A stretch of 64,000 bases of DNA from Gordonibacter massiliensis (ex Traore et al. 2017) (GTDB lineage Bacteria > Actinomycetota > Coriobacteriia > Coriobacteriales > Eggerthellaceae), in NCBI GenBank assembly GCA_900170005.1, contig LT827128.1, forward strand, positions 248,001-312,000, in the 5' to 3' direction. Below the pieces are notes generated by a model. It was given only the letters and a program-made list of their open reading frames with translations, did no database searches and was not told where the DNA came from. The position numbers were made by a program, and so were the translations under genes. This document shows positions 20,723 through 39,985 of the stretch, one piece after another; the stretch's first letter is position 1, and every line of letters begins with the position of its first letter.

Positions 20723-20729
20723 AGAGGTG

Positions 20730-20948
20730 TTAGTTCCGTCCCGGAGCTTTGGGTGCCGCCGGGACTCCCGGCGCACCCGGTGCTTTAGGCGCGCCCGGAG
20801 CGCCGGGAGCCCCGGGCGCTCCGGGCGCGCCTGCCGTGGCGGGCAGCTCGGCGCCGCACTGGGGGCAGGCGGTCGCGGCCGGTTCGCAAGAATGCCCGCA
20901 CTGGGGGCATTTCTTGTTGAGCTCAACTGCCGTAGGTCTAAAACACAT
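20730..20948 (-). CDS. Zinc-ribbon protein with collagen-like Gly-Ala-Pro tail (72 aa)
   Basis: Starting at MCFRPTAVE (ATG at 20948), the protein has a double-knuckle zinc ribbon (CPQCGHS ... CPQCGAE) and then a low-complexity tail of about nine G-A-P triplets ending APKAPGRN. The protein at 45867-46118 has the same three parts: an MCYRPPAAE start, a ribbon and a G-A-P tail. The two therefore form a small family. The gene lies between a palindromic repeat and module D and is divergent from D. Function unknown; metal binding or a scaffold role is a guess from composition. Confidence 0.65.
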   Translation of the reverse strand: MCFRPTAVELNKKCPQCGHSCEPAATACPQCGAELPATAGAPGAPGAPGAPGAPKAPGAPGVPAAPKAPGRN

Positions 20949-21050
20949 GGTCAAACCTCTCTTTCTTGAGATCCTGCATTGCTCGGGTAGCGCGGACCGA
21001 TCCACGAGCAGTATAGGAAACGGCGGTTTCGCCAGCCTATAGAGGTTGTT

Positions 21051-21074
21051 CCAAAAAGTCCCCCTCTTTTTTGG
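21051..21074. promoter_or_regulatory. Inverted repeat upstream of module D
   Basis: CCAAAAA ... TTTTTGG arms (7 bp) around a C-rich centre, 117 bp before the module D start and in a region otherwise free of genes. It is AT-rich at the arms and could be an operator. It does not match the AAACTTAC element. Confidence 0.3.
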
Positions 21075-21190
21075 AGGTTCCTCCGTATCGCGGGCGCAAG
21101 CGCCCTCCCTAGAATGGCGCTATTCGACGAACGGTCGCATTCGCTAGGCGTTCGGCGATCCCCACAAGACGAGGGAAGAGAGGACAAGGT

Positions 21191-23590: not shown

Positions 23591-23603
23591 GGAGGAGGTA
23601 CTC

Positions 23604-23951
23604 ATGGCAAACATCGGCGAATACGGCCTTCTGATCGACTACCAGTACTGCTCGGGCTGCCACGCCTGCGAGGTGGCCTGCAAGAAGGAGCACGACCTGC
23701 CCAAGGGCGACTTCGGCATCAAGATCCTCACCGACGGCCCGCGCCAGTGCTCCGACGGCGTGTGGGAGTACGACTACCTGCCCGTGCCCACGCACCTGTG
23801 CGACCTGTGCGCAGCGCGCGTCGAGGCCGGCAAGCTGCCCACCTGCGTGCACCACTGCCAGGCCGGCGTCATGGTCTACGGCCCGCTCGAGGAGCTGGCC
23901 GCCAAGGCGAAGGCGGCTGCAAAGGACAAGATGGCGATCTTCGCGAAGTAG
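23604..23951 (+). CDS. Module D two-cluster ferredoxin subunit
   Basis: 115 residues preceded by AAGGAGGAGGT. Motifs are CSGCHACEVAC and CDLC ... CVHHC, giving two [4Fe-4S] clusters. It begins 13 bp after the catalytic stop codon. It is the electron-transfer partner of module D. Confidence 0.92.
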   Translation: MANIGEYGLLIDYQYCSGCHACEVACKKEHDLPKGDFGIKILTDGPRQCSDGVWEYDYLPVPTHLCDLCAARVEAGKLPTCVHHCQAGVMVYGPLEELAAKAKAAAKDKMAIFAK

Positions 23952-24182
23952 CCTCGCGGCGGGAAGGTGCTGCGGCGGGTGCGGTTTTCCGCTTCCGCCG
24001 CGCTCCCTCTCTCGGCGGACGGTGCCAAGCCGCCCGCCCGCTTCACCATCTGCGCCATGGATCGGCTGGTCGGTAAAACGACCGGCTGGTGGCGTTTCGG
24101 ACGAGGTTGCTCAACGGCCTCGCCGCCCGGCGTGCAAGGGGCGCGCCGGGTGTTACCTTTTCGTTTCGCAAGGGGGTCGAAC

Positions 24183-25452
24183 ATGCAAGAGAAACTCTAT
24201 CCGTGGCGATGGGCCATCCTGATAGGCATGACGGTGCTGCTCGTGAGCCTGCAGTTCTCGTTCATCGTGCCGGGCGGCGCGGCGATTCTGGTGATGCAGC
24301 AGTACCAGTGCGAGCCCATGATGTTCTCCATGATCATGTCCATTCCGTACTTTTCGGGCGTGCTGTTCTGCATGGCCGGCGGCGTGCTGGCCGACCGCCT
24401 GGGCCTCGGCAAGGTGTTCGCGGCGGCGTTCGTCGTGTCGCTTCTGGGCGCGCTTGCGCGCTGCTTCTCGGCCGACTACTGGACGCTCTTCGCCTCGAGC
24501 TTCTTCATGGGCATGGGCGTGGCGGCGCTCAACGCGAACTCCGCGAAGCTTCTGCGCCTGTGGTTCCCCGGCACGGCGAACTCGTTCGCCATGGGCGTGT
24601 ACACGGCCGGCATGTCGGCCGGCGCGGCGCTGGCCATCTGGTTCGGTTCCCGCGTGAGCGCCATCCAGGACGCTTGGTGGTTCAGCTTCGGCCTTATGTG
24701 CGTGGGCGTGGTCGCGTGGTTCGCGGTGTACCGCAAGCACCCCGACGGCGAGCATCGTTCGGTCGAGCCGGTGGGCACGTACCTGCGCGTGGTGGTGAGG
24801 AACTGGCCACGTGTGGGCCGTCGCCATCGTGGCGTTCCTCGTGTTCGGCATGACGAACGTGAACGGCTCCTACATGGTGGCCGCCGTGACCACGCTCATG
24901 GGCGATCCGAGCCTCACGGCCGTGGCGGGCGACCTGTCCACGCTGAACACGGTCATCGCCTGCGTGGCTTCCATGGCGCTGCCGGTGGTGTTCGCGAAGC
25001 TGTTCAAGAACATGCGGGCGCCCTTCGTCATCTGCCTCGTGGGCACCGCCGTGTGCTTCGCGCTCGTGTTCTTCCTGCCGTACGGGCCCGTCACCTGGGC
25101 GCTGTTCTGCATCCAGCCCGTGCTCATGGCCTCGGTCATGCCGTTCACGAAAATGCTGCCCACGCTGCTGCCCAGCGTGAAGCCCGAGCACTACGGCGTG
25201 GTGGGCGGCATCCAGGCCACGCTTCAGAACTTCGGCATGTTCCTCATCGCGTCCTACATCATCTCGCCCCTCGCCATCGCGGCGACGGGGGCCGTGGACG
25301 GCGTGCCGTATTACCAGGGCGTCTACGTGGCCACGGCCGTGCTCTGCGTTGTGGCCGCGGCGTCGCTCTTCCTGTTCCCGAACGTGCGCAGCTCCGTAGC
25401 ACGCAAGATAGCCGACGAGCAGGCGGCTGCTCCCGTCGAGCGGACGGAGTAA
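24183..25452 (+). pseudogene. MFS transporter of module D, interrupted by a +1 frameshift
   Basis: The first part (from the ATG at 24183 after AAGGGGGTCG) gives six to seven helices. The frame then goes wrong at about 24807, where TGGCCACGTG reads W-P-R; removing one C gives W-H-V-W-A-V and joins smoothly to the second half, open to 25452. Together they make a normal carrier of about 422 residues. The shift is one extra C in the CC pair at 24807-24808. It could be a recent inactivation or an error in the assembly; both halves keep good codon bias, which favours a recent event or an error. If real, module D has lost its carrier. Confidence 0.8.
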
Positions 25453-25485
25453 GAGCAACAAGGATTGCTGCAAGACTTGAACGAA

Positions 25486-25516
25486 GAGAACCGGGCGCCG
25501 AGCCGCCCGGTTTCTC
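25486..25516 (+). terminator. Hairpin terminator after the module D carrier
   Basis: GAGAACCGGGCG / CGCCCGGTTTCTC stem with a 6-nt loop and T-rich 3' arm, 34 bp after the carrier's stop and 28 bp before the next small gene. Confidence 0.6.
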
Positions 25517-25543
25517 ACGTGAAGCGAGAGGAGGGGGCTGCGC

Positions 25544-25753
25544 ATGGGCAACTGCCATTACTGCATGAACTGCGGCCGCTGCCGGGGCGAGAAGCCCCCG
25601 GCCATCCTCGTGCGCCGCTGCCCGTCATGCGGCCACGTGAACGAGCCGGGCATGCGAACCTGCGCCGCCTGCGACGGCTCCCTCGAGCTGCAATCCGGCA
25701 CGACGAGCCTCGCGCCGGGCATGCCGCAACGCGATCTGGGCACTACAGGTTGA
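25544..25753 (+). CDS. Small zinc-ribbon protein (69 aa)
   Basis: The ATG follows AGAGGAGGGGGC. It has eight cysteines: CHYCMNCGRC at the N-terminus, then CPSC and CAAC knuckles (residues about 26-49) typical of a double zinc ribbon, and a polar tail. It resembles the 55-aa protein at 2071 in having a CxxC-rich head and a second ribbon. It lies behind the module D carrier after a terminator and converges on a PucR gene. Function unknown. Its repeated occurrence near modules suggests an accessory role. Confidence 0.65.
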   Translation: MGNCHYCMNCGRCRGEKPPAILVRRCPSCGHVNEPGMRTCAACDGSLELQSGTTSLAPGMPQRDLGTTG

Positions 25754-25822
25754 GCGTGGCGGAGAATACTCGTCCTCGATATAGCTATAGCTTCAGGGAA
25801 GCGCGCCTCGCCGACCCCTCCT

Positions 25823-27520
25823 TTAGCTTTCCTGCTCGGAGCTTCGGGCACCGACGATCGCTCGCTCTACGGAATCGCTGCCCTTGGTGAGGAAGAAGGC
25901 CTTGAAGTCCAGGAGCATGCGCTCGCGGGCGCCGGGGAGGGCGAGGTCGAAGTCGAAGCGGCGCTGGATCTTCTCTATATGGTAGAGCACCGTGTTGCGG
26001 TGCAGGTGGAGCCGCGAGGCCACGGCGGTGGCGTTGCGGCCGCTGTTCAGGTAGTGCCAGAACAGGGCCAGGTAGTTCGTGTTGTTGGCGACGTCCTCGG
26101 CATGGATCTTCTCCACCACGGTGTGCGAGAAGCAGAAGCGCATGAAGCGCTCGTCCTTCTCGGCCGGGTCCACGAGGAAGTACATGAGCGCGTCGCCGAA
26201 CAGGTACGCGCCGCGGTCGGCATCCTCGGCTGCGGCGAACTGCAGGCGGATGGTCTGGCGCAGCCCGAGCGCGATCTTCGCCTGCCGGTACGCCATATCG
26301 AGGTTCTCGATGCCCTCGAATATCTCCGACACGCCGCAATCGATGCCCAAAGGGCCGCTCACGTGCTCTTCGAGCTCGTCCAGGGTGCGGCGGTGCGCGA
26401 GGCGGCAGTCGCTCGGCGGCGCGTAGCAGAGCGCCAGCACCTCGGCGCGATAGGCGAAACAATGCACGTCACCCCCGTTCAGGCGCCCGGCCGCCCGCAC
26501 CGCGCGCCCCGCCTTCTCGGGGTCGGCCCCCTCGTCGGCCTCCAGCACCACGAGCTTGTACTGCGCGTCGGCCGCAAGCCCGGCCATCTCCCGCTGCGTG
26601 GCCACGTACTCGCACGACACGGGCTCGTGCTCCAGCAGCTTCTCGAAGAAGAAGTAATGCGGGATGTTCAGCCGCACCTGCGAGCGCCACTGCTGCTCGC
26701 AGAGCGGCATGACATGGCGTATCAAGATGCCGAACAGGTCCTTCAGCCCCTCGGTGAGCGGCGCGACGTGACACGACATGGACAGCGACCCGAAGTAGGT
26801 GTGGCTGAGGTACAGCGGGTGCGAAAGCCGCGCGTAGGGCGTGATCTCGGAAGGCTCCTTCTCGTAGAACGCCTTCTCGGGCAGGTGAAAGCGCTTCTCT
26901 GCGATCATCTGGGGCGAAAGGCAGCCGGTTTCCACCAAGCGCCGGTGCAGGGCGTCGGGCGGCTCGATGGCGGAGGTGCGCGCGATGAGGTTGAACTCGT
27001 TGTCGGTGACGAACATGAAATTGCGCATGACCGGCGCGCTGGCATCGAGCGCCTCGGCCAGCGCGCCATGGCGCAGCGCGATGCGGTCGAGCTCGCCCTC
27101 CCACAGCAAAAGACGCATGAAGTAGGACTGCACGAGGAAGATGAAGTAGGAGAAGCGGTCCTGCTGGCGGATGACGAGCAGGCGGTCGGCCACGTCCGCG
27201 AGGTCGGGTCCGACCGCCTCGCCGTCGTCTGCAAGCGCGAGCGCGAAGGCGCGCGGCCGCTCGCGCAAAAGCGAGCCGGCCATGCGGAGATGGCACACGA
27301 ACAGCAGGCGCGCGTCGTCGAGGTCGCCCGGGGCCGTGCTCGCCACCTGCTCGTGCGACACGGCGGCGAACCAGCGGAACGTGCGGCGCGCGGCGGGCGG
27401 GCGGTGGACGACCTCGCAGTCCGACAGGAAGTCTTCCAGCATGGGCAGCGTCACCGTCGCCAGGCTGCCCCCTTGCGCGGGCGCGAGGAAGACGTCGTCC
27501 TCGAAATCATGCGATGCCAC
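25823..27520 (-). CDS. PucR-type transcriptional regulator
   Basis: I chose the GTG at 27520, which follows GGGGG by about 8 bases and gives 565 residues beginning MASHDFEDDVF. The longer upstream frame has poor coding character. The C-terminus has the PucR helix-turn-helix (NATAVASRLHLHRNTVLYHI). The middle contains the CdaR-like segment IENLDMAYRQAKIALGL. The N-terminal region is a sensor of unknown ligand. It is divergent from the ArsM-like/radical-SAM cluster with 330 bp between them and converges with the module D block. It may therefore control the cluster, module D, or both. Confidence 0.87.
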   Translation of the reverse strand: MASHDFEDDVFLAPAQGGSLATVTLPMLEDFLSDCEVVHRPPAARRTFRWFAAVSHEQVASTAPGDLDDARLLFVCHLRMAGSLLRERPRAFALALADDGEAVGPDLADVADRLLVIRQQDRFSYFIFLVQSYFMRLLLWEGELDRIALRHGALAEALDASAPVMRNFMFVTDNEFNLIARTSAIEPPDALHRRLVETGCLSPQMIAEKRFHLPEKAFYEKEPSEITPYARLSHPLYLSHTYFGSLSMSCHVAPLTEGLKDLFGILIRHVMPLCEQQWRSQVRLNIPHYFFFEKLLEHEPVSCEYVATQREMAGLAADAQYKLVVLEADEGADPEKAGRAVRAAGRLNGGDVHCFAYRAEVLALCYAPPSDCRLAHRRTLDELEEHVSGPLGIDCGVSEIFEGIENLDMAYRQAKIALGLRQTIRLQFAAAEDADRGAYLFGDALMYFLVDPAEKDERFMRFCFSHTVVEKIHAEDVANNTNYLALFWHYLNSGRNATAVASRLHLHRNTVLYHIEKIQRRFDFDLALPGARERMLLDFKAFFLTKGSDSVERAIVGARSSEQES

Positions 27521-27850
27521 TGAGAACCCCCATTCACGTGACGGCCGAAGCGCGGGTGCCGCTTCCGGTATACCCGAACAGTATAGCAGGAGGCGCGGCG
27601 TAACCGCGCGGATCCGGCAGGGGCGCGTCGGATGGGGAAGGAGGACAGGGATCGGTCGATCTTCGAGGGATGGCGATCGTGCAGGGAATCGGCGAAGGGC
27701 GACGTGCGGGCGCGCGTCGATGGCCGTTTGCGGAGGGTGGCCGAGGGCCGAGCTGAATTGACTATGGCGGCGATGCGTCGCAAAGTGATAGACTATATCA
27801 TATATTAATAGGTTGCAAACAACTAAATGGCTACGAGAGAGGCGGAGACG
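27521..27850. other. Intergenic region with an AT-rich promoter-like patch
   Basis: 330 bp between divergent PucR and methyltransferase genes. Most is GC-rich and non-coding. The last 65 bp contain a sharp AT-rich patch (about 27787-27810) with GATAGACTATATC and a second TATAT, which probably holds the promoter and operator of the methyltransferase cluster. No further gene is seen. Confidence 0.45.
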
Positions 27851-28948
27851 ATGGACTACCATGCTTACTACCGCAAGGCCGAGGCCGGAAGCTATCAGGC
27901 GTACTACGACGCGATCGCGGCGGCGCAGGGCGTCGATCCTCAGGCCACGGCGCGCACGCGCAACGCCGAGGACGCTATGCCGGGGGAGGCGAAGGATAAG
28001 CTCTTCAACGTGGCCGCCGAGATCAAGAACACGTTCCACGAGTTCGGGTCTCCGCTGCCGCCGCTCTTGGAAGGGTGCACCGTGGTGGACCTATGCTGCG
28101 GGTCGGGGCGCGACACCTATCTGGCGGCCCAGCTGGTGGGGCCGGGCGGCAAGGTGATCGGCGTCGAGCCCAACGCGGAGCGCCTCGCCATCGCGCAGAA
28201 GTACCGGGACCAGGAGATCAAGCAGTTCGGCTACGACGCCTGCAACGTGGAGCTGGTGCACGGCGTGCCCGAGGACCTTTCCTTCCTCGCCAACGGCACG
28301 GTCGACGTGGTCATCTCCAACTGCACGTTCAACCTTTCGCCCGACAAGGCCGCCTACGTCGCCGAGGTCAAGCGCGTGCTGAAGCCGCAAGGCGAGTGGT
28401 ACTTCACCGACGTGTTCACCGACCGCCGCATCCCGCAGGAGGCTTCGGACAAGATCGAGAACGTCGCCCTGCGCCTGGGAGGCGCCCTGTTTGTGGAGGA
28501 TTTCCGACGTATCGCCCAGGGCCTGGGCTTCCATGACCCGCGCTACGTGGTGACGCGCAAGACGCCGGTGACCGACGCTGAGGCGGCCCTCTTCCCCGGC
28601 ATCGCGTTCGCTACCATCACCTGTCGTCTCCTGAACTCCGAGCTCACGTCGGACCATTGCGAGGACTACGGGGAGGAGGTCGTCTACGACGGGACGCTTC
28701 CCGACTACCCTGACTTCTTCCTGTTCGACAAGGATATCAAGTTCCCGGCCGGCCAGTCGTGCCACGTATGCGACAACGTGTCGGTGCTGGGCCTTGGGGA
28801 CTGCCGCTACGCGAAGGTCATCACCGTGAAGGGCGACCGCTCGGCGCACTACGGTGATATCCACGGCGACCACATCATCAAGACCGCTGCGGATTGGGAG
28901 GGCGTCGTCGACGAGGACGACCAGCCGCCCATGGTAAGCTGCTGTTAA
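27851..28948 (+). CDS. ArsM-like SAM methyltransferase lacking arsenic-binding cysteines
   Basis: 365 residues from the ATG at 27851 after GGCGGAGACG; an ATG 24 bases upstream lacks a ribosome site. The class I SAM motif VVDLCCGSGRD (about 78-88) and the C-terminal ArsM-type domain (YDGTLPDYPDFF, then HYGDIHGDH) resemble arsenite methyltransferases and the second methyltransferase at 30161. Of the cysteines that bind As(III) in ArsM (algal numbering 72, 174, 224), only the middle one is kept (Cys158, SNCTFNL). The others are Phe65 and Arg208. New cysteines appear at the end (CHVCDN and a terminal SCC). It is likely to methylate something other than free arsenite, or to act with its neighbour. 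Confidence 0.78.
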   Translation: MDYHAYYRKAEAGSYQAYYDAIAAAQGVDPQATARTRNAEDAMPGEAKDKLFNVAAEIKNTFHEFGSPLPPLLEGCTVVDLCCGSGRDTYLAAQLVGPGGKVIGVEPNAERLAIAQKYRDQEIKQFGYDACNVELVHGVPEDLSFLANGTVDVVISNCTFNLSPDKAAYVAEVKRVLKPQGEWYFTDVFTDRRIPQEASDKIENVALRLGGALFVEDFRRIAQGLGFHDPRYVVTRKTPVTDAEAALFPGIAFATITCRLLNSELTSDHCEDYGEEVVYDGTLPDYPDFFLFDKDIKFPAGQSCHVCDNVSVLGLGDCRYAKVITVKGDRSAHYGDIHGDHIIKTAADWEGVVDEDDQPPMVSCC

Positions 28949-29018
28949 GGAAACGAGAGCGCCGAAGGCGGGCGGGCTTGGCGACGAGCCGCCTGCCTTC
29001 GCGCGAAAGGTGCGGAAC

Positions 29019-30107
29019 ATGGACAAGATCAGATTCATGGTGGTGAGCGGGTTTCTGGGCGCCGGCAAGACCACGACGATGATAGCCCTGGCCGAGCACA
29101 TGAACAAAACGTACGGCGAGACGGCCATCATCGCCAACGACCTGGGGGCGAACCTGGTGGACACCAACCTCACCCAGACGTCGGGCTGCACGGTGGCCGA
29201 GATCGCCTCGGGCTGCATCTGCTACCAGATGGACAATACCATCGACCAGATACGCCGCCTGCGCGACAAGGACGGCGCCGCGTTCGTGATGTCCGACATC
29301 CCCGGCTGCGGCGTGGGCGCGCTCGATCACGTGTACCATCGCCTGGCCGAGGACTGCGCCGACGAGTTCACGCTGTCGCCGTTCACGGTGGTGGTCGACC
29401 CGGAGCGTTTGCGCATGATCATGCCGGAGCGGGCCGACATCAACCTGCCGGAAGAGCTGGTGTACCTGCTGAAGCTGCAGCTGGAAGAGGCCGACCTCGT
29501 GGTGCTGAACAAGGCCGACCTGCTGGAGCAGGCGGACATCGACCGCTACGTCGACTTCCTGAAAATGGCCTGCCCCGACATTCCCGTCATCGTGATCTCG
29601 GCTTTGAAGAAGACGAACATCGCCGAGCTCGCCGACTTCATCACCTCGCACGAGACGGCGCTCAAGAACTTCTCGGTTCGCCACAACCAGGAGTTCGCCG
29701 ACGCCGAGGCGAAGCTTACGTGGTACAACCGCCGCCTGTACCTCAAGACGAACGACGGCGGCAAGATCGACTGCAACGCGGTGGTGGACGACCTCATCGA
29801 GGGCATCCGCATGGGGCTCATCGAGCGCAAGCGCAACGTGCCGCATCTGAAGACGTTCGCCATCTCGGGCAACGGCGACTTCAACAAGGCGTCGCTCATC
29901 GGCGTGGACTACGACGTGGAGTACGCGCAGAAGCTTTTGCGGCCGCACAAAAACCTGCGCATGATCATCAACGCGCGTGCCGTGTGCGAGGCGCGGCCGC
30001 TCGCGCGCCTGATGGACGACGCGCTGGACGAGGTGTGCGACAAGTACGACTTGGACTGCCAGGTGTTCTTCACGGAATGCTTCGGCATGGCGGACGAAGG
30101 AAGATAG
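29019..30107 (+). CDS. G3E-family (CobW-like) GTPase
   Basis: 362 residues. The P-loop is GFLGAGKTT at 11-19, the guanine-specificity motif is NKAD, and a GCICY motif corresponds to the C-x-C-C metal site of CobW/COG0523 proteins with the last Cys replaced by Tyr. A CobW C-terminal-like region follows. G3E GTPases deliver metals or support metallo- or cobalamin-dependent enzymes. It lies 70 bp after the ArsM-like methyltransferase and 53 bp before the ArsM-ArsS fusion, so it is probably in the same operon. It may load a metal or help reactivate a cofactor of the methyl/radical-SAM enzymes; this is inferred. Confidence 0.85.
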   Translation: MDKIRFMVVSGFLGAGKTTTMIALAEHMNKTYGETAIIANDLGANLVDTNLTQTSGCTVAEIASGCICYQMDNTIDQIRRLRDKDGAAFVMSDIPGCGVGALDHVYHRLAEDCADEFTLSPFTVVVDPERLRMIMPERADINLPEELVYLLKLQLEEADLVVLNKADLLEQADIDRYVDFLKMACPDIPVIVISALKKTNIAELADFITSHETALKNFSVRHNQEFADAEAKLTWYNRRLYLKTNDGGKIDCNAVVDDLIEGIRMGLIERKRNVPHLKTFAISGNGDFNKASLIGVDYDVEYAQKLLRPHKNLRMIINARAVCEARPLARLMDDALDEVCDKYDLDCQVFFTECFGMADEGR

Positions 30108-30160
30108 CAACCTTAACTGCGGGGCGGAGGTGGCAATCACCAAAAATGAGAGGGTTCTAC

Positions 30161-32218
30161 ATGGGATTCGATGAGGGCAGGGACGTTCGCGAGTTGGTGC
30201 GCGAGTATTACGGGAAGACGTTGCAGGGCAGCGACGATTTGAAGACCGACGCTTGCTGCTGCACGTCGCATACGCCGCCGAAGTACGTGATCGACGTCAT
30301 GGGCGAGCTCGACGACGAGATCATGGCGCACTTCTACGGGTGCGGCTCGCCCATTCCGCCGGCGCTCGAAGGCGCGACCGTGCTCGACCTAGGGTGCGGC
30401 ACCGGGCGGGACGTGTACATCTGCTCGAAGCTCGTGGGGCCAGCCGGGCGCGTCATCGGCGTGGACATGACCGAGCAGCAGCTCGCCTTCGCGCGGAGCC
30501 ACGAAGCGGCCCAGATGGAGCGGTTCGGCTTTACGCGCTCGAACGTGGAGTTCCACTGCGGCTTCATCGAGGACCTGGCCGCGCTCGGCATCGAGGACGA
30601 GTCGGTGGACGTGGTCGTGTCCAACTGCGTCATCAACCTCTCGCCCTTCAAAGACCAGGTGTTCAAGGAGATTTGCCGCGTGCTGAAGCCGGGCGGCGAG
30701 CTGTACTTCTCGGACATCTTCTCCGACCGCCGCGTGCCGCCCAAGTTCTACGACGACCCCGTGCTGCGCGGCGAGTGCCTATCGGGCGCGCTCTATATCG
30801 AGGACTTCCGGCGCATCCTGGACGCGCATGGCGTCGCGACGTTCTACGACGTGGAGACCGAGCCCTTGCACGTGGGCGACTTCCAGATTGAGACGAAGCT
30901 CGGCTGCATCGGGTTCGCCTCGCACACGGTGCGCGCCGTGAAGTGCACCGACCTGGAGGATCGCGAGGAGAACTACGGGCAGACGACCACCTACCTGGGT
31001 ACCATGCCCGAGAACAAGCGCTATTTCGACCTTACCGAGGACCTGCGCTTCATCAAGGGGCGGCCGGTCGCCGTGAGCGGCAACATGGCGTCGATGCTGC
31101 GCGCCTCGCGCTACGCCGCGCACTTCGAGGTGACGGGCAACCGCGACCGCCACATGGGCCCCTACGACCGCGAGGCGGCGCAGGAGGCGCTCGAGCTCAA
31201 GCGCGGCAAGCGGCAGGTGGGGCTGGCCGACTTGGAGGAGGCGTGCCGCGAGCTGGGCATCGAGCCGTTCGAGCAGCGCGTGCACGACAAGGAGCTGCTC
31301 AAGAGCGCGCCCGAGCTCGCCACCATGCAGGTGAACGTGGGCTACCGCTGCAACCTGGCGTGCAGCCACTGCTTCTTGGAAAGCGGCCCGCGCCGCACCG
31401 AGGTTATGAGCCGCGACACCATGGAGGCCGTGCTGGCGGCGTTCGCCACGGGCGGGTTCCGCACACTCGACATCACGGGCGGCTCTCCCGAGATGAACCC
31501 CGACCTGGAATGGTTCGTCCGCGCGGCGAGCGAGGTGGCCGACGAGGTCATCGTGCGCAGCAACCTGACCATCCTCGACATACCCGAGTACCGCCACTTC
31601 AAGCAGGTGTACGTCGACTGCAAGGTGCACCTGGTGACGTCGCTGCCGTACTTCAACGAGCAGGGCTGCGACCTGCAGCGCGGACGCAACGTGTTCGACC
31701 GCGTGGTGAAGGTGCTGCGCGAGCTGAACGGGCTCGGGTACGGCGTGGACCCCGCCCTCAAGATCGACGTGGCCTACAACGTGTCCGGCCCCTTCCTGCC
31801 GCCCGACCAGCGCGAGCTGGAGGAGTTCTACGCCTATGAGCTGGAGCGCGAGCAGCACGTGAAGTTCGACAACCTGTTCGCGTTCAACAACTACGCGCTG
31901 GGTCGTTTCGCGAACGAGCTGAAGTTCGATGGGAAGTTCGACTACTATATGAACCTGCTCGCCGAGAACTACAACGCGGCGGTGGTGGCGCGCATGATGT
32001 GCCGCTCGCAGGTGAACGTGGACTTCGACGGCCGCCTGTACGACTGCGAGGTCAACCACGTGCTGGGGCTGCCGCTGGACGGACCGCGAAACGTGCGCGA
32101 CCTCGTGGACGAGCCCCTGGGCGTGCGCACCGTGGCCACGAGCCCGATCTGCTACAGCTGCGCCGCCGGCTGCGGCAGCTCGTGCGGCGGCAGCCTCATG
32201 GACAAGTACGGCGAGTGA
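30161..32218 (+). CDS. ArsM-ArsS fusion: arsenic methyltransferase plus radical SAM protein
   Basis: 685 residues from the ATG at 30161 after GAGAGGG; an ATG at 30146 is also possible. Residues 1-340 are an ArsM-like SAM methyltransferase (LDLGCGTGRD at 75-84) with CCC at 32-34 and Cys61, Cys156, Cys206 in the positions of the As(III)-binding cysteines. Residues about 385-685 are a radical SAM domain with C-x3-C-x2-C (Cys397, 401, 404) and a Cys-rich end (YDCEVNHVL, CYSCAAGCGSSC) like ArsS/DUF3641 proteins of arsenosugar synthesis. Known arsM and arsS are usually separate genes. The fusion suggests direct hand-over of a methylated arsenical to adenosylation or another radical step. Confidence 0.85.
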   Translation: MGFDEGRDVRELVREYYGKTLQGSDDLKTDACCCTSHTPPKYVIDVMGELDDEIMAHFYGCGSPIPPALEGATVLDLGCGTGRDVYICSKLVGPAGRVIGVDMTEQQLAFARSHEAAQMERFGFTRSNVEFHCGFIEDLAALGIEDESVDVVVSNCVINLSPFKDQVFKEICRVLKPGGELYFSDIFSDRRVPPKFYDDPVLRGECLSGALYIEDFRRILDAHGVATFYDVETEPLHVGDFQIETKLGCIGFASHTVRAVKCTDLEDREENYGQTTTYLGTMPENKRYFDLTEDLRFIKGRPVAVSGNMASMLRASRYAAHFEVTGNRDRHMGPYDREAAQEALELKRGKRQVGLADLEEACRELGIEPFEQRVHDKELLKSAPELATMQVNVGYRCNLACSHCFLESGPRRTEVMSRDTMEAVLAAFATGGFRTLDITGGSPEMNPDLEWFVRAASEVADEVIVRSNLTILDIPEYRHFKQVYVDCKVHLVTSLPYFNEQGCDLQRGRNVFDRVVKVLRELNGLGYGVDPALKIDVAYNVSGPFLPPDQRELEEFYAYELEREQHVKFDNLFAFNNYALGRFANELKFDGKFDYYMNLLAENYNAAVVARMMCRSQVNVDFDGRLYDCEVNHVLGLPLDGPRNVRDLVDEPLGVRTVATSPICYSCAAGCGSSCGGSLMDKYGE

Positions 32219-32314
32219 CGGGCGCTGCCGCGGTCTCGCCTCTCCCGCGACGCCGTGGCCAGTCCGTGATGCCGCGTCCCCGGCTCCTCGTGATGTCGCT
32301 GCATCGGTTCTCCC

Positions 32315-32418
32315 GTAGGGGCGCTCTTCAGAGCGCCCGCTCGCGCGAAGCGCGAGAACGCGGGTTCCGACCGCTTTTCCGGCTTCGCCGGAACGGGCAC
32401 TCTGGAGAGCGCCCCTAC
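32315..32418. repeat. Palindromic repeat copy 2 (104 bp)
   Basis: Same element as at 20620-20722: GTAGGGGCGC outer arms (32315-32339 and 32394-32418, two mismatches between arms), inner CTCGCGC/GCGCGAG and TTCCGGC-TTC-GCCGGAA hairpins. It lies in the 242-bp gap between the fusion gene and the DUF5714 gene. Here the arms extend a further 3 bp outward (CCC/GGG). Confidence 0.85.
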
Positions 32419-32460
32419 GGGTTCGTCAAGCAAAGGTGTTCTTTAGAGAAGGGAAGGTCC

Positions 32461-33168
32461 ATGTCCACCGTCAAGGCGTCGTGCTTGGTTTGCGGGGAAC
32501 CGCTGCAGTACTTCGAGGAGGCTCGGGAGGTGACATGCGCCGTCTGCGGCAAGCACGAGGCGGCGCGCGCGGTTTGCCGGGAGGGCCACTACGTATGCGA
32601 CGCCTGCCATCGCAAAGAGGGCGTCGACCTGGTCATGGCCCGCTGCGCCTCCACGGACTCCCGCAACCCTATCGAAATCGCGCAGGACCTCATGGCCGAA
32701 AAAGCCATCTACCCCAACGGCCCCGAGCACCACACGCTCGTGGGCGCGGCGCTGCTCGCCGCGTACCGCAACGCCGGTGGCGAGATCGACCTTGACCGCG
32801 CGCTCGCCGAGCTGCGCGAGCGCAGCCTGAACGTGCCCGGCGGCGCCTGCGGCTTCTGGGGCACGTGCGGCGCGGCCGTGAGCGCCGGCATGTACCTGAG
32901 CATCGTCACGGGCTCCACGCCCCTGACCGCGGAGCCGTGGGCGCAGGTGCAGGGGCTCACGGCTCGCATCTTGGGACGCTTGGCCGAGATCGGCGGCCCG
33001 CGCTGCTGCAAGCGCACCTCGTTCACGGCCATCCAGACGAGCGTGAACTACACCGCCGAGGTGTTGGGCGTGCGCATGGAGCTGCCTGGGCGCATCGTCT
33101 GCACGTTCGCCGCCCGCAACGCCGAATGCATCGGCGCCCGCTGCCCCTACTCGCGCGGCGCTGCCTGA
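32461..33168 (+). CDS. DUF5714-type cysteine-rich protein
   Basis: 235 residues, ATG after AAGGGAAGGTCC. An N-terminal zinc-ribbon region has four CxxC-type pairs (CLVC, CAVC, C ... CDAC), followed by a helical domain with conserved motifs GPEHHTLVGAALL, GGACGFWGTCGAAVSAG and GGPRCCKR, ending CIGARCPYS. This matches my recollection of the DUF5714 family. No catalytic function is known to me. It follows the ArsM-ArsS fusion on the same strand, with a palindromic repeat between, and is the last gene of the cluster. Conserved Cys/His residues make a metal or metalloid ligand role possible. Confidence 0.75.
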   Translation: MSTVKASCLVCGEPLQYFEEAREVTCAVCGKHEAARAVCREGHYVCDACHRKEGVDLVMARCASTDSRNPIEIAQDLMAEKAIYPNGPEHHTLVGAALLAAYRNAGGEIDLDRALAELRERSLNVPGGACGFWGTCGAAVSAGMYLSIVTGSTPLTAEPWAQVQGLTARILGRLAEIGGPRCCKRTSFTAIQTSVNYTAEVLGVRMELPGRIVCTFAARNAECIGARCPYSRGAA

Positions 33169-33256
33169 GAATAGGGGCAGCGCGCAATCCTTCTCCCTGG
33201 TGGTTCGAAGGAGTCGACGGATGCCGCGCCGGTTCGCGCGCCGGCTCGAAGGCGCC

Positions 33257-35206
33257 CTAGCGCGCCTCCTCGCTCGCCGCGATGACGGCGGCGGCCTCGT
33301 CGGGCGACAGCGGGCGCGAGAACAGGTAGCCTTGCATGAGGCTGCAGCCGCACTCGTTCAGAAACGCGCGCTGCTCCTGCGTCTCCACGCCTTCGGACAG
33401 TATCTGCGATCCCATGGCGCCGAACCCCGCCGTCAGCAGCCCGAAGAACTCGGTGAGGTGCTCGTCCTCCGTCGCGGACCACAGAATGCTCTTGTCCAGC
33501 TTCACCACGTCGAACGGCAGCTCCAGCATCATGGATATGTTCGAGTACCCGGTGCCGAAATCGTCCAGGTAGAAGCGCACTCCATGGGCGTGCATGTCCT
33601 CCATGAAGGCGCGCACGGCGTCGGGGTTTGCGATGATGGCGCTCTCCGTCACCTCGACGCGCAGGCACGATGCGGGTATGCCGTGCCGTTCCACGACGGC
33701 CAGCACCGATTCTGCCTGGTCGTCCTGTATGAACTCCACCGCCGAGAAGTTCACCGACACCCCGCGGAACGTCGAGTCGGGGTGCGCGTCGCGATAGGCC
33801 CGGATGAACGCGCAGGCGCGGTTCAGCATGAAGCGCGTGACGTCCGAAATGACGCCGATCTGCTCGGCGACGGGGATGAACTCGTCGGGCGGTATGGAGC
33901 CCAGCTCGTCATCGTCCAAGCGGCACAGCGCCTCGGCCGCCACGAACCGTCGCTCGCTCTCCGACCACACGGGCTGCAGCTTCACGGTGAATCCGCCGCA
34001 TTCCGCCGCCCGGCGCACCACGTCGGCGATGGCGCTGCGCCGGTGGATGGCCTCCATCATATCCGGCGTGCAGACGCACGGCACGTTCGGCCCCCGGCCC
34101 TTCGACTCCACCGTGGCGTATTCCAGCGCCGCCACCACGTCGCCGGGGTTGTGCGCGATGGCGGGGTAGCTCACCGCGCCGATGGCCGCGCCCACGGTGT
34201 AGGAGCGTCCGCCGATGCGCCACGGCTCGCTCAGGCGCTGCCGCAGCGGCGCGAGCAGAGCGGCCGTTTTCCCGTCTTCTCCCCGGGTGCCGAGCACGCC
34301 ATCGCTCATGATGAAGGCGAACTGGTCGCCGCTGTATCGGAAAAGCCGCGCGTCGTCGATAGTCCCCAGGTACGAGGCGAACTCCCGCAAAAACCGGTCG
34401 CCGCTCTCGTGGCCGAACTTGTCGTTGATGAACTTGAAGTTCGACAGCGACACCAGCACGGCGGTGAACGGCTGGGCCTTCTCGTCCAGCAGCGAGACCA
34501 TGGACAGGAACTCCTGGCGGTTGGAGGCGCCGGTGAGCTGGTCAACCGATAGGCGCTTGTTCTGCAGGTACAGGTAGATGATGAGCAGCGAGCACGCCGC
34601 CGCCGATCCCGACAGCAGGTAGGCGGGGAACAGCTGCTGCACGGCTATCACGGCCACGGCGATGAGCGGGAACACGGCCAGGATGCGTTTGATGACGGGG
34701 TCGATGGGCGCGCGGGTGAACACCACCAACGCGAAGCAGGCCACGCAATAGAAGTAGAACACCAGGTACGTGGTGACGATGAGCGGCCCTTGCACGTAGC
34801 TGCCGGCCGCGTCGAAGAAGAACAGGCAGCCGGTGGGCACGTTCGCCACCACCAGCAGGAAGTACGCCGCGCACGGCACGCAGCTCGCCACGGCGAAGCG
34901 CCGTCCGACCGGCCGTGCCTCGCTCACCACGGCCACGGCGTAGTAAAAGTACACGGTGCCCAGCAACGGCGTGAGCGCGAAGTAGCACAGGGTTATGAGA
35001 TAGGTGAGCGGCAGCAGCTCCGGCGGCGCGTAGGCGATCATGAGCGTGGAGGCCAGGTTCGTGCCGATAGCGCCCAGCGTGGTGGCGAGGCACAGTCGGA
35101 ACACGCGGTTCTTCGGCGAGGGCACCGCATGACTCTTGCGCGAGTACACGGAGATGATGAGCACGATGATGAAGGCGATAACTTCAGCCGATACGTTCCA
35201 TTCCAT
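33257..35206 (-). CDS. Membrane GGDEF-EAL protein with degenerate GGDEF (probable c-di-GMP phosphodiesterase)
   Basis: 649 residues. The first 215 contain six to eight hydrophobic helices. The GGDEF domain (about 220-375) is degenerate: the signature reads SGDQF at 292-296, and the first metal Asp is Ser in SLSNFKFIND. The EAL domain (about 385-645) keeps EALCR (425-429), DDFGTGYS and SEGVET, so it should hydrolyse cyclic di-GMP, perhaps with the GGDEF as a GTP-sensing module. The ribosome site is weak. It converges on the DUF5714 gene and is not clearly tied to the metabolic modules. Confidence 0.88.
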   Translation of the reverse strand: MEWNVSAEVIAFIIVLIISVYSRKSHAVPSPKNRVFRLCLATTLGAIGTNLASTLMIAYAPPELLPLTYLITLCYFALTPLLGTVYFYYAVAVVSEARPVGRRFAVASCVPCAAYFLLVVANVPTGCLFFFDAAGSYVQGPLIVTTYLVFYFYCVACFALVVFTRAPIDPVIKRILAVFPLIAVAVIAVQQLFPAYLLSGSAAACSLLIIYLYLQNKRLSVDQLTGASNRQEFLSMVSLLDEKAQPFTAVLVSLSNFKFINDKFGHESGDRFLREFASYLGTIDDARLFRYSGDQFAFIMSDGVLGTRGEDGKTAALLAPLRQRLSEPWRIGGRSYTVGAAIGAVSYPAIAHNPGDVVAALEYATVESKGRGPNVPCVCTPDMMEAIHRRSAIADVVRRAAECGGFTVKLQPVWSESERRFVAAEALCRLDDDELGSIPPDEFIPVAEQIGVISDVTRFMLNRACAFIRAYRDAHPDSTFRGVSVNFSAVEFIQDDQAESVLAVVERHGIPASCLRVEVTESAIIANPDAVRAFMEDMHAHGVRFYLDDFGTGYSNISMMLELPFDVVKLDKSILWSATEDEHLTEFFGLLTAGFGAMGSQILSEGVETQEQRAFLNECGCSLMQGYLFSRPLSPDEAAAVIAASEEAR

Positions 35207-35414
35207 GGTCGATAGCCGTCGAGCCTTCCGCTTGGTTTCCCCTCGTCACCAGTATTGTACCCTTCTCGGTGCCATTCGCCCTGCACAATTCCGTTATAGT
35301 TGAACGTCGGGGAGTGTCGGCGGCCTCGGGGGGAGGCTGTCGGATCGGTGGCATGCGGAGCGACGGCTCCGCCGTGCAGGTGCGGTTTGCATCGAGCCAC
35401 TTCTGCTTGGAAGT

Positions 35415-35442
35415 CCGCCCGCCGGCGTTCGCCGGCGGGCGG
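35415..35442 (-). terminator. Strong hairpin after the SDR gene
   Basis: A perfect 12-bp stem, CCGCCCGCCGGC / GCCGGCGGGCGG, with a GTTC loop, 6 bp beyond the SDR stop codon. No T-tract follows on the minus strand. Confidence 0.5.
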
Positions 35443-35448
35443 TGCTCG

Positions 35449-36327
35449 CTAGCCGTTCACCACGGTGCCACCGTTCACGTGGATCACCTGGCCCGAGATG
35501 TAGCTCGAGTCGTCGCAGGCCAAAAACACGTAGGCGGGCGCTAGCTCGTAGGGCTGGCCGGGGCGTCCCATGGGCACGCTTTCTCCGAAGTGGCGCACCT
35601 TGTCGCTGTCCGGGCCGTAAGAGGCGGGGTTGAGCGGCGTCCAGATGGGGCCGGGCGCCACGGCGTTCACGCGGATGCCGCGACCCGCCAGCTCCTCGTT
35701 CTCGGAAAGCGAGCGGGTGAACGCCGTGATGGCGCCTTTCGTGGACGAGTAGTCCAGCAGGTCGGGCGAGCCCTGGTAGGCGGTCACCGACGTGGTGTTC
35801 ACGATGGCCCCGCCGCGCGGCAGATGCGGCAACGCGGCCTTCACCAGGTAGAACATGCTGAAGATGTTCGTTTGGAACGTGCGCACGAGCTGCTCTTGCG
35901 AAAGGTCGAGGATGCTCTTGCACGGCGTTTGCTCGCCGGCGTTGTTCACGAGCACGTCGAGGCGGTCCCATTCGTCCACGATGCCGGATACCAGATCTCG
36001 GCAGAACCCTTCGTCGCCCACGTCCCCCTTGAACACGAGGGCGCGCCGCCCCAGCGCGCGGATGCGCTCGGCCACGGCCTGCGCGTCGTCGTCCGACGAG
36101 TAGTACGCGATGGCCACGTCGGCGCCCTCCTTGGCGAACGCGATGGCCGCGGCGGCTCCGATGCCGCTGTCGCCTCCGGTGACGAGGGCAGCTTTGCCCT
36201 CGAGCTTGCCCGCTGCGCGGTACGAGTCGCTTTCAAGCTGCGGCTTGGGGTCGACGTTCGCGCGCACGTCGTCCATGGCGTAGCCCGCCTTCGGGGCTTG
36301 GGTTTCGAGCGTTGCGGTTTGCGTCAT
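35449..36327 (-). CDS. Short-chain dehydrogenase/reductase (YghA-like)
   Basis: 292 residues, ATG after GAAGGAGCACCCT. The Rossmann motif is TGGDSGIG (50-57), NNAG is at 128-131, and the catalytic Ser180, Tyr193 and Lys197 (YSSTK) are all present. An N-terminal extension of about 40 residues (starting MTQTATLETQAPK) is typical of the YghA/general-stress group of NAD(P)-dependent oxidoreductases. The substrate is unknown. It stands alone between the c-di-GMP gene and a divergent flavodiiron protein. Confidence 0.9.
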   Translation of the reverse strand: MTQTATLETQAPKAGYAMDDVRANVDPKPQLESDSYRAAGKLEGKAALVTGGDSGIGAAAAIAFAKEGADVAIAYYSSDDDAQAVAERIRALGRRALVFKGDVGDEGFCRDLVSGIVDEWDRLDVLVNNAGEQTPCKSILDLSQEQLVRTFQTNIFSMFYLVKAALPHLPRGGAIVNTTSVTAYQGSPDLLDYSSTKGAITAFTRSLSENEELAGRGIRVNAVAPGPIWTPLNPASYGPDSDKVRHFGESVPMGRPGQPYELAPAYVFLACDDSSYISGQVIHVNGGTVVNG

Positions 36328-36526
36328 AGGGTGCTCCTTCCATTCGGGATACGCTCGCAGCTTACCGTCCGCCCGACACCGTCGCCCGCGTCGGCGTCGG
36401 GCGTTACGCGGCCCTTCGGCAGCGGTAACGTCCGCGAGAACTGCGGTTCTGGTCCTTCGCACTTCCCCTCGCAACCCTCCGCGCGACCCTAATGCTGGTC
36501 TTTCGCTATCATTTGCCCGCGCGACC

Positions 36527-36555
36527 TTCGGACGTTCGCGCGCGTCGGTTATACT
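36527..36555 (+). promoter_or_regulatory. Candidate promoter for the flavodiiron gene
   Basis: TTCGGA (36527-36532), a 17-bp spacer and TATACT (36550-36555), 28 bp before the ATG at 36583. The -10 is good and the -35 weak. Confidence 0.45.
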
Positions 36556-36582
36556 GGGCGAAAAACGAGAGAGGAGCGCGCC

Positions 36583-37770
36583 ATGTTGCATGCGGTCGAG
36601 GTGAAGCCCGACGTGTACTGGGTCGGGGGCGTCGATTGGAACGAGCGGAACTTCCACGGCTACACGACGGACCGGGGGTCCACGTACAACGCCTACCTTA
36701 TCATGGACGAGCATCCCACGCTCATCGACACGTGCAAGCCAACGTTCGCCGACGAGCTCATCGAGCGCGTGCGCGAGGTGGTGGATCCGGCGCGCATCGA
36801 GTACGTCGTCGCGAACCACGTGGAGCAGGACCATTCCGGCGCCATCCCCGCCATCTGCGAACTCGCGCCGAACGCGCGCATCTACGCGAGCGCCCCGCAC
36901 GGCGTGAACGGCCTTGCGGCCCATTACGGCGACCGCGGCTACGTGCCCGTCAAAACCGGCGACACGCTCAGCATCGGCAAGCGCACGCTCACGTTCACGC
37001 AGACCGTCATGGTGCACTGGCCCGACAACATGGTCACGTACTCCGACGCCGACCGCATCCTGTTCTCCAACGACGCCTTCGGCCAGCACTACGCCTCGTC
37101 GAAGCACTTCGACGACGAGGTGGGCCTGCCCGAGGTGCTCGCGCAGGCGAAGAAGTACTACGCGAACATCGTCATGCCCTACTCGCGCCACGTGCAGCGC
37201 GCGCTGGGGGCGCTCGGCGGCCTGGACATCGACATGATCGCGCCGAGCCACGGCGTGATCTGGCGCAGCCACGTGCCCGAGATCCTGGATACGTACGCGC
37301 GCTGGAGCTCGCTCGCGCCCGACGACTACGCCGTGGTCGTGTACGACTCCATGTGGCACGCCACCGAGGCCATGTCCCACGAGATCCTCGAGGCGTTCAT
37401 CGAGTGCGGCGTGCCCGCCCGCCTGTTCGACCTCAAGGCCAACCACATATCCGACATCATGACCGAGGTGCTGTCGGCGAAGTACGTGGCCGTGGGCTCG
37501 CCCACGCTCAACAACGGCATGATGCCCACCGTGGCGGCGTTCCTCTGCTACCTGAAGGGCCTCTCGCCCAAGACCGGCTGGGAGGGCCGCGTGGGCATCC
37601 CGTTCGGCTCGTACGGCTGGGGCGCGAACGGCCCCGACGAGGTGGCCGAGGTCCTGGAGAAGTGCGGCTTCGACCTGGCCCTCGGCACGCTCTCGCATCA
37701 GTGGACCGAGGACGCCGCCAGCCTCGAGGAGCTGCAGCAAGCCGTGGTGGGAGGCGTGGGGAAGCGGTAG
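36583..37770 (+). CDS. FprA-type flavodiiron protein
   Basis: 395 residues. The N-terminal beta-lactamase-like diiron domain keeps the ligands His79, Glu81, Asp83 and His84 (NHVEQDH), plus His145, Asp164 and His223. The C-terminal flavodoxin-like domain starts near residue 250 and binds FMN (YDSMWHATEAM, GSPTLNNGMM, GSYGWGANG). Such enzymes reduce O2 to water or NO to N2O in anaerobes, taking electrons from rubredoxin or NAD(P)H systems. No fused rubredoxin is present. It is probably a stand-alone oxygen/NO defence gene with its own promoter. The ATG follows AGAGGAG. Confidence 0.93.
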   Translation: MLHAVEVKPDVYWVGGVDWNERNFHGYTTDRGSTYNAYLIMDEHPTLIDTCKPTFADELIERVREVVDPARIEYVVANHVEQDHSGAIPAICELAPNARIYASAPHGVNGLAAHYGDRGYVPVKTGDTLSIGKRTLTFTQTVMVHWPDNMVTYSDADRILFSNDAFGQHYASSKHFDDEVGLPEVLAQAKKYYANIVMPYSRHVQRALGALGGLDIDMIAPSHGVIWRSHVPEILDTYARWSSLAPDDYAVVVYDSMWHATEAMSHEILEAFIECGVPARLFDLKANHISDIMTEVLSAKYVAVGSPTLNNGMMPTVAAFLCYLKGLSPKTGWEGRVGIPFGSYGWGANGPDEVAEVLEKCGFDLALGTLSHQWTEDAASLEELQQAVVGGVGKR

Positions 37771-37949
37771 CGCCCCAAGGCGTCGTCGAAGCTTCCCGCC
37801 GCCCGAGCCCGAGCGGCGCGGCGGCGGGCTTTGCTTGGGGCCGTGCCCCTAGTCGCCGCTGCGCCCTGCCCGCTTTATAATGAACGACGACGGCTGTTGC
37901 GCGGAAGGCATCGGCCGGATCGACGGAACCTCGCTCGAAAGGGGCGCCC

Positions 37950-38870
37950 ATGCCGACCTGCCTGGGAAAGACGCTGCTCATAGCCAACCCAACGGCGCAG
38001 AACGGCAACGGCGCCGCTGCGGCGCAGCGCGCGGCGACCCTGCTGCGGGCGGCCTTGGGCGACGGCGCCCTCGACGTGGCGCTCACCGAGGCGCCCGGAC
38101 AGGCGGTCGACCTGGCGGCGGGCGCGGGCGCGCACGACACGGTGCTCGCCCTCGGCGGCGACGGCATCATCCACGAGGCGGCGAACGGGCTCATGCGCCT
38201 GCCGCGGGAAGATCGGCCGGCTTTCGGCATCGTCCCCGTGGGCTCCGGCAACGACTACGCTCGCACGCTGGGCATGTCGGCCCGCTCGGTGGACGAGGCC
38301 GCGGCCCAACTGCTCGCGGCGTCGAGTCGGCCGGCCGACGTAGGGCGGTGCAACGGGGAGTTCTTCGTGGAAACGCTCTCGTTCGGCGTCGACGCGGCTA
38401 TCGCGCTCGACACGGTGGAGCGGCGCAAACGCACGGGCAAGACCGGCACGGCGCTCTACCTGGCCAGCGGCATGGACCAGCTGCTGCACCACCTGGATCG
38501 CCGCCGCTACACGGCCTCGTTCGACGGCGGCGCGCCCATCGGTGGCGAATCGTTCACGTTCGCCGTGCAGGTGGGCCCCACCTACGGCGGCGGCTTCCGC
38601 ATCTGCCCGGACGCGCGCATCGACGACGGCCTGCTCGACGTGTGCATCGCGCACCCGCCTTTCGGCCTCGCGCGGGCCGTGCTCGTGTTCCTGCTGGCGA
38701 AAGGCGGCCGGCACACGGGCTTCAAGCAGATAGAGCTGCGCCGCGTCCGCACGCTCAGCGTGCGGTTCGACGAGCGTCCTCCCGTGCAGATCGACGGCGA
38801 GCCGCTCGTGGCCGACGAGTACGCCGTCGACATCGTGCCGCACGCGCTCGACGTGCTCATGCCCCGCTGA
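37950..38870 (+). CDS. Diacylglycerol kinase-family lipid kinase (YegS/DgkB-like)
   Basis: 306 residues. The nucleotide-binding motif GGDG is at 69-72, and GSGNDYART at 98-106 fits the DAGK catalytic domain; the second half is the beta-sandwich domain (VGPTYGGGFRICPDA). It phosphorylates a lipid such as diacylglycerol at the inner membrane face and helps recycle lipids. The ATG follows GAAAGGGGCG. TATAAT at 37876 could be its -10, though no -35 stands out. It converges with the DUF5996 gene 13 bp away. Confidence 0.88.
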   Translation: MPTCLGKTLLIANPTAQNGNGAAAAQRAATLLRAALGDGALDVALTEAPGQAVDLAAGAGAHDTVLALGGDGIIHEAANGLMRLPREDRPAFGIVPVGSGNDYARTLGMSARSVDEAAAQLLAASSRPADVGRCNGEFFVETLSFGVDAAIALDTVERRKRTGKTGTALYLASGMDQLLHHLDRRRYTASFDGGAPIGGESFTFAVQVGPTYGGGFRICPDARIDDGLLDVCIAHPPFGLARAVLVFLLAKGGRHTGFKQIELRRVRTLSVRFDERPPVQIDGEPLVADEYAVDIVPHALDVLMPR

Positions 38871-38883
38871 CCGGCGCGCCCCT

Positions 38884-39777: not shown

Positions 39778-39985
39778 GGCCTTCTCCTTGCGGTCGGGGG
39801 CGGGCGTTGCGGGATTTCAACCGATACAGTCTAGCGGCGGTCCCGCCGGCTCGCCGCCTGCGCCCCGAAGGCGTCAACAGTGCGTGGGGAAGGGGTTACG
39901 CGGGTGGCGGATACCGCGCGTTTCCGCTAGGATGGGCGGGTAATCGAATCGATCCCGCGCCCCGCGCGCGGCGGCAAGGAGCCCC

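Follow-up and report, generated by a model that had tools for sequence, protein, structure and literature searches.

The gut anaerobe Gordonibacter massiliensis carries, within the 64 kb stretch of DNA analysed here (the window), four intact open reading frames in a row on the plus strand, which an earlier reading made from the sequence only had described as one cluster divergent from a PucR regulator. The first (MT1, 27851-28948) encodes an ArsM-like class I methyltransferase ending in Ser-Cys-Cys, assigned by family match and cysteine alignment. The second (29019-30107, with an alternative GTG start at 29010) encodes a G3E/CobW-type GTPase with CxCY replacing CxCC and a C-terminal domain of its own, as judged by family match, alignment and a predicted model, and the third (30161-32218) a fusion of a methyltransferase (residues ~1-340) to an ArsS domain made of radical S-adenosylmethionine (SAM) and DUF3641 parts (~366-685). 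The fourth (32461-33168) encodes a DUF5714 protein, a facultative partner composed of a Cys-rich N-terminal part and a helical Cys/His-rich domain. Seventy bases separate MT1 from the G3E gene and 53 the latter from the fusion; the 242 bases between fusion and DUF5714 contain a 110-base palindromic repeat (32312-32425, no strand), which is multicopy in the genome. The PucR-type regulator (25823 to ~27520, minus strand) is divergent from MT1, and the intergenic region between them (27521-27850) forms the left edge of a cassette that is present in some genomes and absent from others.

All of these genes are present as described from the sequence, and their family matches agree. The fusion reaches 341.9 bits with the ArsS model TIGR04167, above its curated cut-off of 300, and matches DUF3641 at 1.7e-39; the GTPase matches cobW (PF02492) at 8.1e-22, with 78.1 bits against a cut-off of 20.7, the DUF5714 protein matches PF18978 at 6.4e-65, and the regulator HTH_30 at 1.8e-12. 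MT1 matches Methyltransf_31 (3.7e-22) and scores 116 bits with the arsenite methyltransferase model, below its cut-off of 263. The N-terminal half of the fusion is likewise filed as ArsM-like because its 182.9 bits against NF008823, an arsenite methyltransferase model, fall below the curated 263, though it is homologous to ArsM proteins of solved structure.

Here, I show that the conserved unit at this locus consists of three genes, namely MT1, the G3E GTPase and the ArsM-ArsS fusion. Named genomes were scanned with a G3E alignment as query, and the best 80 of 115 loci, some of which had also been found by the CICY pattern discussed below, were taken for neighbour counts within 6.5 kb of the G3E gene; as the G3E served as bait, co-occurrence in these loci is conditioned on it. 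The fusion lies near the G3E in 41 of the 80 loci and MT1 in 24, every one a fusion locus, and a TrsS-type radical SAM enzyme is found in 25, never together with the fusion (0/80). Three loci have other Trs-type genes without TrsS, and 11 have neither the fusion nor Trs-type genes, eight of these lying near a contig end. The same-strand order MT1-G3E-fusion is the commonest (20/41 fusion loci: 19 plus locus L071, which also carries DUF5714), the median distance being 124 bases between the stop of MT1 and the first residue matched in the G3E (23 loci), and 86 bases between the stop of the G3E and the first residue matched in the fusion (38 loci). In the rearranged loci L076, L086 and L128 the fusion is still close by, and the fusion of L063 also has a G3E beside it. 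Of 138 Eggerthellaceae genomes, 43 have the G3E, and in 36 of these an ArsS match is no more than 4.5 kb away; among the other seven, a contig end falls inside the fusion gene in one (genome G065, locus L088), the G3E lies within 400 bases of a contig end in five, and G054 has both genes on separate long contigs. The MT1-G3E-fusion neighbourhood is far beyond chance. The expectation that all four families would recur together across the family was borne out for the ArsM-like protein, the G3E and the fusion, but not for DUF5714, which is near the G3E in 14/80 loci, of which 10 are fusion loci (10/41) and two TrsS-type.

Two further checks were free of the bait, namely a TIGR04167 scan for ArsS in the genomes of the family and a scan of 398 Bacillota genomes (the phylum to which Clostridium ragsdalei belongs) with the fusion as query. 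The G3E operon is found in two of the 31 regions taken from the former. In the remaining 29, a different ArsS fusion was found 16 times and an AhpD-ArsS pair 10 times, the two occurring together in one region; one region holds neither, and three contain an ArsM-ArsS fusion, two of them cut by contig ends, so that ArsM-ArsS fusions away from the G3E are rare. In the Bacillota scan 11 genomes gave matches at E <= 1e-60; a full-length fusion (57% identity) is present in one of them, where it directly follows a G3E (57.6% identity).

DUF5714 is a looser partner. The sequence-only reading had made it a necessary step of one four-gene pathway, a view that finds some support at the genome level: DUF5714 occurs in 41 of the 138 Eggerthellaceae genomes (one of them, G126, scoring below the family cut-off) and together with the G3E in 27, the G3E thus being present in 27/41 genomes with DUF5714 vs 16/97 without (Fisher 3e-8, ignoring descent) or, by genus, in 12/18 vs 6/30 (p 0.002, ignoring descent). 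It also lies upstream of the G3E on the same strand in 8/41 fusion loci, and beside an MT1-like gene in two others (L050:8219-10016 and L061:8789-10566), where the latter ends in Ser-Ser-Cys-Cys and stands directly upstream of DUF5714 with no G3E nearby. Yet DUF5714 is absent within 6.5 kb of 31/41 fusion loci, is never downstream of the fusion as it is in the window (0/41, against 10 upstream) and, outside Eggerthellaceae, is found in 5/21 genomes with this G3E and absent from 16. In the congeners G003 and G004 both sides of the locus are collinear with the window, ~4.8 kb including the cassette are missing and PucR adjoins DUF5714; in G001 the cassette is present and DUF5714 absent, and in G002, which belongs to the host's genus, DUF5714 sits between PucR and MT1, split over two frames. 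Because it is present without the cassette, absent with it, and separated from the fusion by a genomic repeat, DUF5714 is not part of the cassette and likely plays a facultative role, which leaves a single four-gene pathway quite improbable. The predicted DUF5714 model (mean predicted local distance difference test, pLDDT, 88.3) has two strands in the Cys-rich N-terminal part; it gave no PDB match at E <= 0.001 (best VIA Z 4.7), which is not proof of a new fold, and a profile search of the PDB returned weak matches (best E 0.034).

The residue patterns of the fusion were counted in 39 proteins, i.e. the window copy and those from 38 of the 41 loci whose frames are whole enough. Residues 8-338 align with the solved arsenite methyltransferase 5evj (1.9e-87), and the nearest solved relatives of this half are arsenite methyltransferases. 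Cysteines C34, C61, C156 and C206 match the ArsM cysteines of 5evj and are kept in 39, 37, 39 and 37 of the 39 fusions, the cysteines of CmArsM being those which I take as reference positions for As(III) binding. In the ArsS half, the radical SAM cysteines 397/401/404 (CxxxCxxC) and the ArsS cysteines C614, C629, C664, C667 and C675 occur in 39/39, and the domain may be able to adenosylate an arsenical. In two loci, L116 and L122 (from the same genomes as L042 and L040), the methyltransferase half is without its SAM motif and two of the ArsM cysteines, the ArsS half and the G3E remaining intact. These patterns bear on the explanation that the locus simply detoxifies arsenite by methylating it, ArsS, G3E and MT1 contributing little. 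ArsM alone is a known detoxification enzyme, and the fusion keeps its cysteines; such a role is nonetheless very unlikely, for the cluster cysteines of ArsS are invariant, MT1 is conserved with a different cysteine set, and L116 and L122 have lost the SAM motif of the methyltransferase half yet keep ArsS and the G3E. In these two loci the fusion adjoins an ATP-binding cassette (ABC) importer and a deaminase-like gene; their version of the system perhaps starts from an imported methylated compound.

MT1 retains the third ArsM cysteine in 24/24 proteins, the other three positions being kept in 0 or 1 of 24, and has cysteines of its own: C270 and C307 in 24/24, C304 in 21/24 and a Cys-Cys end in 23/24, the 24th row having a gap there. 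The G3E protein shows a comparable departure, for CICY stands in place of CxCC, the usual metal motif of G3E/COG0523 proteins, in 44/44 rows, from loci that were partly found by that pattern. Its nucleotide-binding motifs GxxGxGKT and NKxD are present in the alignment, and two further cysteines, C326 and C357, occur in 21/21 fusion-linked rows and in 13/17 and 12/17 Trs-linked rows, respectively. The predicted model (mean pLDDT 92.0) places its GTPase domain nearest to UreG, HypB and MeaB (Z 17.4-18.7, root-mean-square deviation 2.8-3.0, 181-188 residues), which are maturation or reactivation GTPases. A cobalamin-linked step, which had been suggested for the GTPase, is not borne out: no riboswitch was found, with no Rfam match at E <= 0.1 in positions 20000-40000 of the window and two tRNAs only in seven related loci, and the three folds are equally near. 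Promoter and terminator scans returned no more than shuffled sequence did.

A further feature of this G3E subfamily is that its radical SAM partner changes. The TrsS-type label (25 loci) was given by phmmer from one protein at E 1e-20; in an NCBIfam scan of 12 of the 25, TrsS was the best family in 12/12 and above its cut-off of 490 in five, most of those below scoring 401-487, and L136, cut by a contig end, 212. In a quick tree of ArsS domains (68 rows, 64 different), 42 ArsM-fused rows are divided from 26 others by a fully supported branch, and the ArsS domain of the Bacillota fusion joins the ArsM-fused clade. The fusion-linked G3Es, on the contrary, fall into two clades: one of 28 members (24 with MT1, counting the window), whose sister, at weak support (80), is a TrsS-type clade, and one of 14 (nine with DUF5714, one with MT1), sister to a TrsS-type clade with full support. 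A single clade of fusion-linked G3Es is rejected by the approximately unbiased (AU) test (p-AU 0.0105; 42 vs 28 rows, a quick tree in which, as in that of ArsS, some rows are identical or near-identical). Both this test and the two-label count omit the 11/80 rows labelled edge or none, and treat the three loci with other Trs genes as TrsS; the placement of the Bacillota G3E (L208) is ambiguous, and the label changes remain two after adding it. Since the ArsS domains of the fusions make up one clade, and their G3Es two that lie among TrsS-linked ones, partners changed at least twice, and the trees indicate that one G3E subfamily has had two radical SAM families as partners.

Most Bacillota loci with the G3E have a TrsS-type enzyme beside it and not ArsS, and some of these loci add a methyltransferase, an AMP ligase and a molybdopterin aldehyde oxidoreductase. 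Such company, together with the likeness of the G3E model to the maturation or reactivation GTPases UreG, HypB and MeaB, could be read as the mark of cofactor or metalloenzyme maturation, in which the G3E would load the metal of a client and the methyltransferase and radical SAM enzyme would make or alter a cofactor, as might also happen in TrsS operons. This is rather unlikely at the ArsM-ArsS loci, where no recurrent client metalloenzyme is found, the commonest family accounting for four of 96 neighbours. In the window itself no TrsS homologue was found at 1e-6; the best TrsS match of the host genome, a radical SAM gene at 288 bits against the cut-off of 490, lies elsewhere, away from the window (G000:C1:3462976-3464247).

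With middling confidence, the window may be regarded as carrying a three-protein module that forms an organoarsenical, the fusion methylating As(III) and adding a 5'-deoxyadenosyl group with the assistance of G3E and MT1; its best-supported description is that of a variant of the first, ArsM-ArsS stage of arsenosugar synthesis in which the two enzymes are fused and a GTPase is added. The fusion would bind trivalent arsenic through its ArsM cysteines and methylate it with SAM, whereupon the radical SAM ArsS domain would attach the 5'-deoxyadenosyl moiety of another SAM, giving a (di)methylarsinyl-adenosine-type compound. The G3E would act as a GTP-driven partner in metal or metalloid handling, required by ArsS-type and TrsS-type radical SAM enzymes alike, MT1, an ArsM paralogue that has diverged and carries a different set of thiols, as an extra methyltransferase or a carrier, and DUF5714 as a facultative thiol-rich accessory. 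The gene set, its conservation, the changes of partner and the residue patterns are what the analysis shows, and from these I infer arsenic as the substrate, the adenosyl product, the order of the reactions and the roles of G3E, MT1 and DUF5714; of the earlier suggestion of a methylated or adenosylated arsenical, the type of product is favoured by the four ArsM cysteines and the ArsS match, and arsenic itself stays a presumed substrate. According to published work, ArsS adenosylates arsenic (PMC12159101) and works together with ArsM in Synechocystis (PMC8552651). An S-adenosylhomocysteine/methylthioadenosine-type deaminase is found near 9/80 loci, all nine being fusion loci; its assignment leans on the deaminase function of TM0936, and it fits recycling of SAM by-products or processing of an adenosyl product.

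Several points weigh against this interpretation. Fusion-borne methylation is not universal, the methyltransferase half being degenerate in L116 and L122. The host has two further ArsS genes above cut-off, of the AhpD-paired and of another fused type, and so arsenosugar-type chemistry may belong to these. Acr3 was not found in the genome; the 96 neighbours of the fusion loci (25 of 67 families listed) included no conspicuous regulator or exporter for arsenic, ArsR not having been searched genome-wide, and no downstream arsenosugar genes were recognised among the same neighbours. A homology search found no counterpart of the deaminase in the 64 kb window, the G3E was the bait by which the 41 named fusion loci were collected, and no biochemistry for this gene set was found in the literature. 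ArsB-family matches do occur elsewhere in the genome (78.6 and 48.8 bits, cut-off 22.2).

Some of these points are shared by the proposal that the module acts, via an ArsM/ArsS scaffold, on a soft element other than arsenic, such as selenium, tellurium, antimony or mercury, or on an organo-element compound taken up from outside. With an AhpD-ArsS pair (in-frame TGA) and a second ArsS fusion already in the host, a third ArsS may serve another substrate; the G3E is also present in TrsS-type loci, where both MT1 and the fusion are absent; genes for sulfonate/SaoA-like ABC importers lie near several loci (substrate-binding protein in 8/80, ATPase in 15/80); and the lack of any conspicuous ars regulator or exporter among the neighbours counts here in favour. 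Such a substrate is nevertheless rather unlikely, given that the four ArsM-type cysteines are kept in nearly all fusions and that the closest solved relatives are arsenite methyltransferases.

The organoarsenical module proposed here has several relatives among described systems. The first steps of arsenosugar synthesis in Synechocystis employ the same arsenite methyltransferase and radical SAM ArsS, which are fused here; the window differs by an additional G3E GTPase, a diverged ArsM paralogue, the lack of recognised downstream arsenosugar genes and a host that is a gut anaerobe. The AhpD-ArsS pair (TIGR04167, often a selenoprotein) shares the ArsS radical SAM and DUF3641 parts and the GSS-C/U-GG end, but the fusion of the window belongs to a separate clade, is joined to ArsM, has the Cys form and is without an AhpD partner. 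In the arsinothricin cluster arsQML, a radical SAM enzyme likewise forms a C-As bond beside an ArsM; the group transferred by ArsL is a different one, 3-amino-3-carboxypropyl according to PMC8552651, and the ArsM model NF040538 reaches here 145 of 500 bits, far under its cut-off. TrsS operons (NF045646; DVU_1553/DVU_1556 families) share the G3E subfamily, which there adjoins a radical SAM enzyme and, in some, a methyltransferase, yet TrsS is of another radical SAM family and is never found with the ArsM-ArsS fusion in the 80 loci. As for DUF5714, its domain region matches residues 36-267 of the model of MbdU, a metal-binding double selenoprotein (NF045648), from which the window protein differs by its score (167.3 of 600 bits), its length (235 residues) and the lack of an in-frame stop; a 2026 review (PMC13188914) cites Haft and Tolstoy 2025 (mSystems) for MbdU.

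The statement that no described pathway pairs ArsM and ArsS with a G3E GTPase holds for the accessible literature, in which no description of a G3E with an ArsM-ArsS fusion was found; a G3E beside TrsS or DUF5714 may have an earlier mention. If the organoarsenical reading is right, common gut bacteria have a dedicated route to complex organoarsenicals, with a bearing on the fate of dietary arsenic in the body, and an orphan GTPase subfamily, common to the unexplained TrsS operons, gains its first testable client, a C-As bond-forming radical SAM enzyme. That a single GTPase subfamily is repeatedly found with two different radical SAM families opens the function of this GTPase to direct testing. 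More tentatively, the G3E subfamily could be a general and interchangeable partner of radical SAM enzymes that build carbon-metalloid or similar bonds, and the Eggerthellaceae product an adenosylated organo-metalloid not seen before, possibly a cofactor or signal rather than a means of detoxification; if true, this possible though doubtful extension would mean that metallochaperone GTPases serve a class of clients not known before.

Selenocysteine in the fusion or in DUF5714 was considered and rejected, for the internal stops are TAG (L040, L042, L063) or TAA (L038), never TGA, and among the ArsS matches listed all in-frame TGA cases are in frames shorter than 480 residues, the size of standalone ArsS. 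One such case is in the host, where a standalone ArsS directly follows an AhpD-like gene (G000:C1:3429300-3430208; L153:9261-10175); its single in-frame TGA is likely selenocysteine, and the genome has a tRNA-Sec match above cut-off. The second ArsS fusion of the host (G000:C1:3698343-3699236; L154) has an N-terminal domain that looks phosphoesterase-like by eye, with no Pfam match at 1e-5. Fusions of this type, found in 16 of the 29 ArsS regions of the family, have a conserved neighbour of ~510 residues with the look of a membrane transporter and no Pfam match.

The palindromic repeat has 40 scored places (148 candidates) in this genome at 85-100% identity, with a further copy at ~20617-20722 of the window. 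The locus of the Bacillota fusion (L208), with a second ArsS of its own, holds on one strand ArsS, three BioB-like radical SAM genes, an SsuA-like ABC importer, G3E, ArsM-ArsS and a SufS-type desulfurase whose N-terminal part is weakly nucleotidyltransferase-like. BioB/HydE-like radical SAM proteins, all of one family, also adjoin the G3E or fusion operon in 4/80 named loci (L082:1006-2085, L093:13323-14330, L106:8905-9945 and L110:8910-9953).

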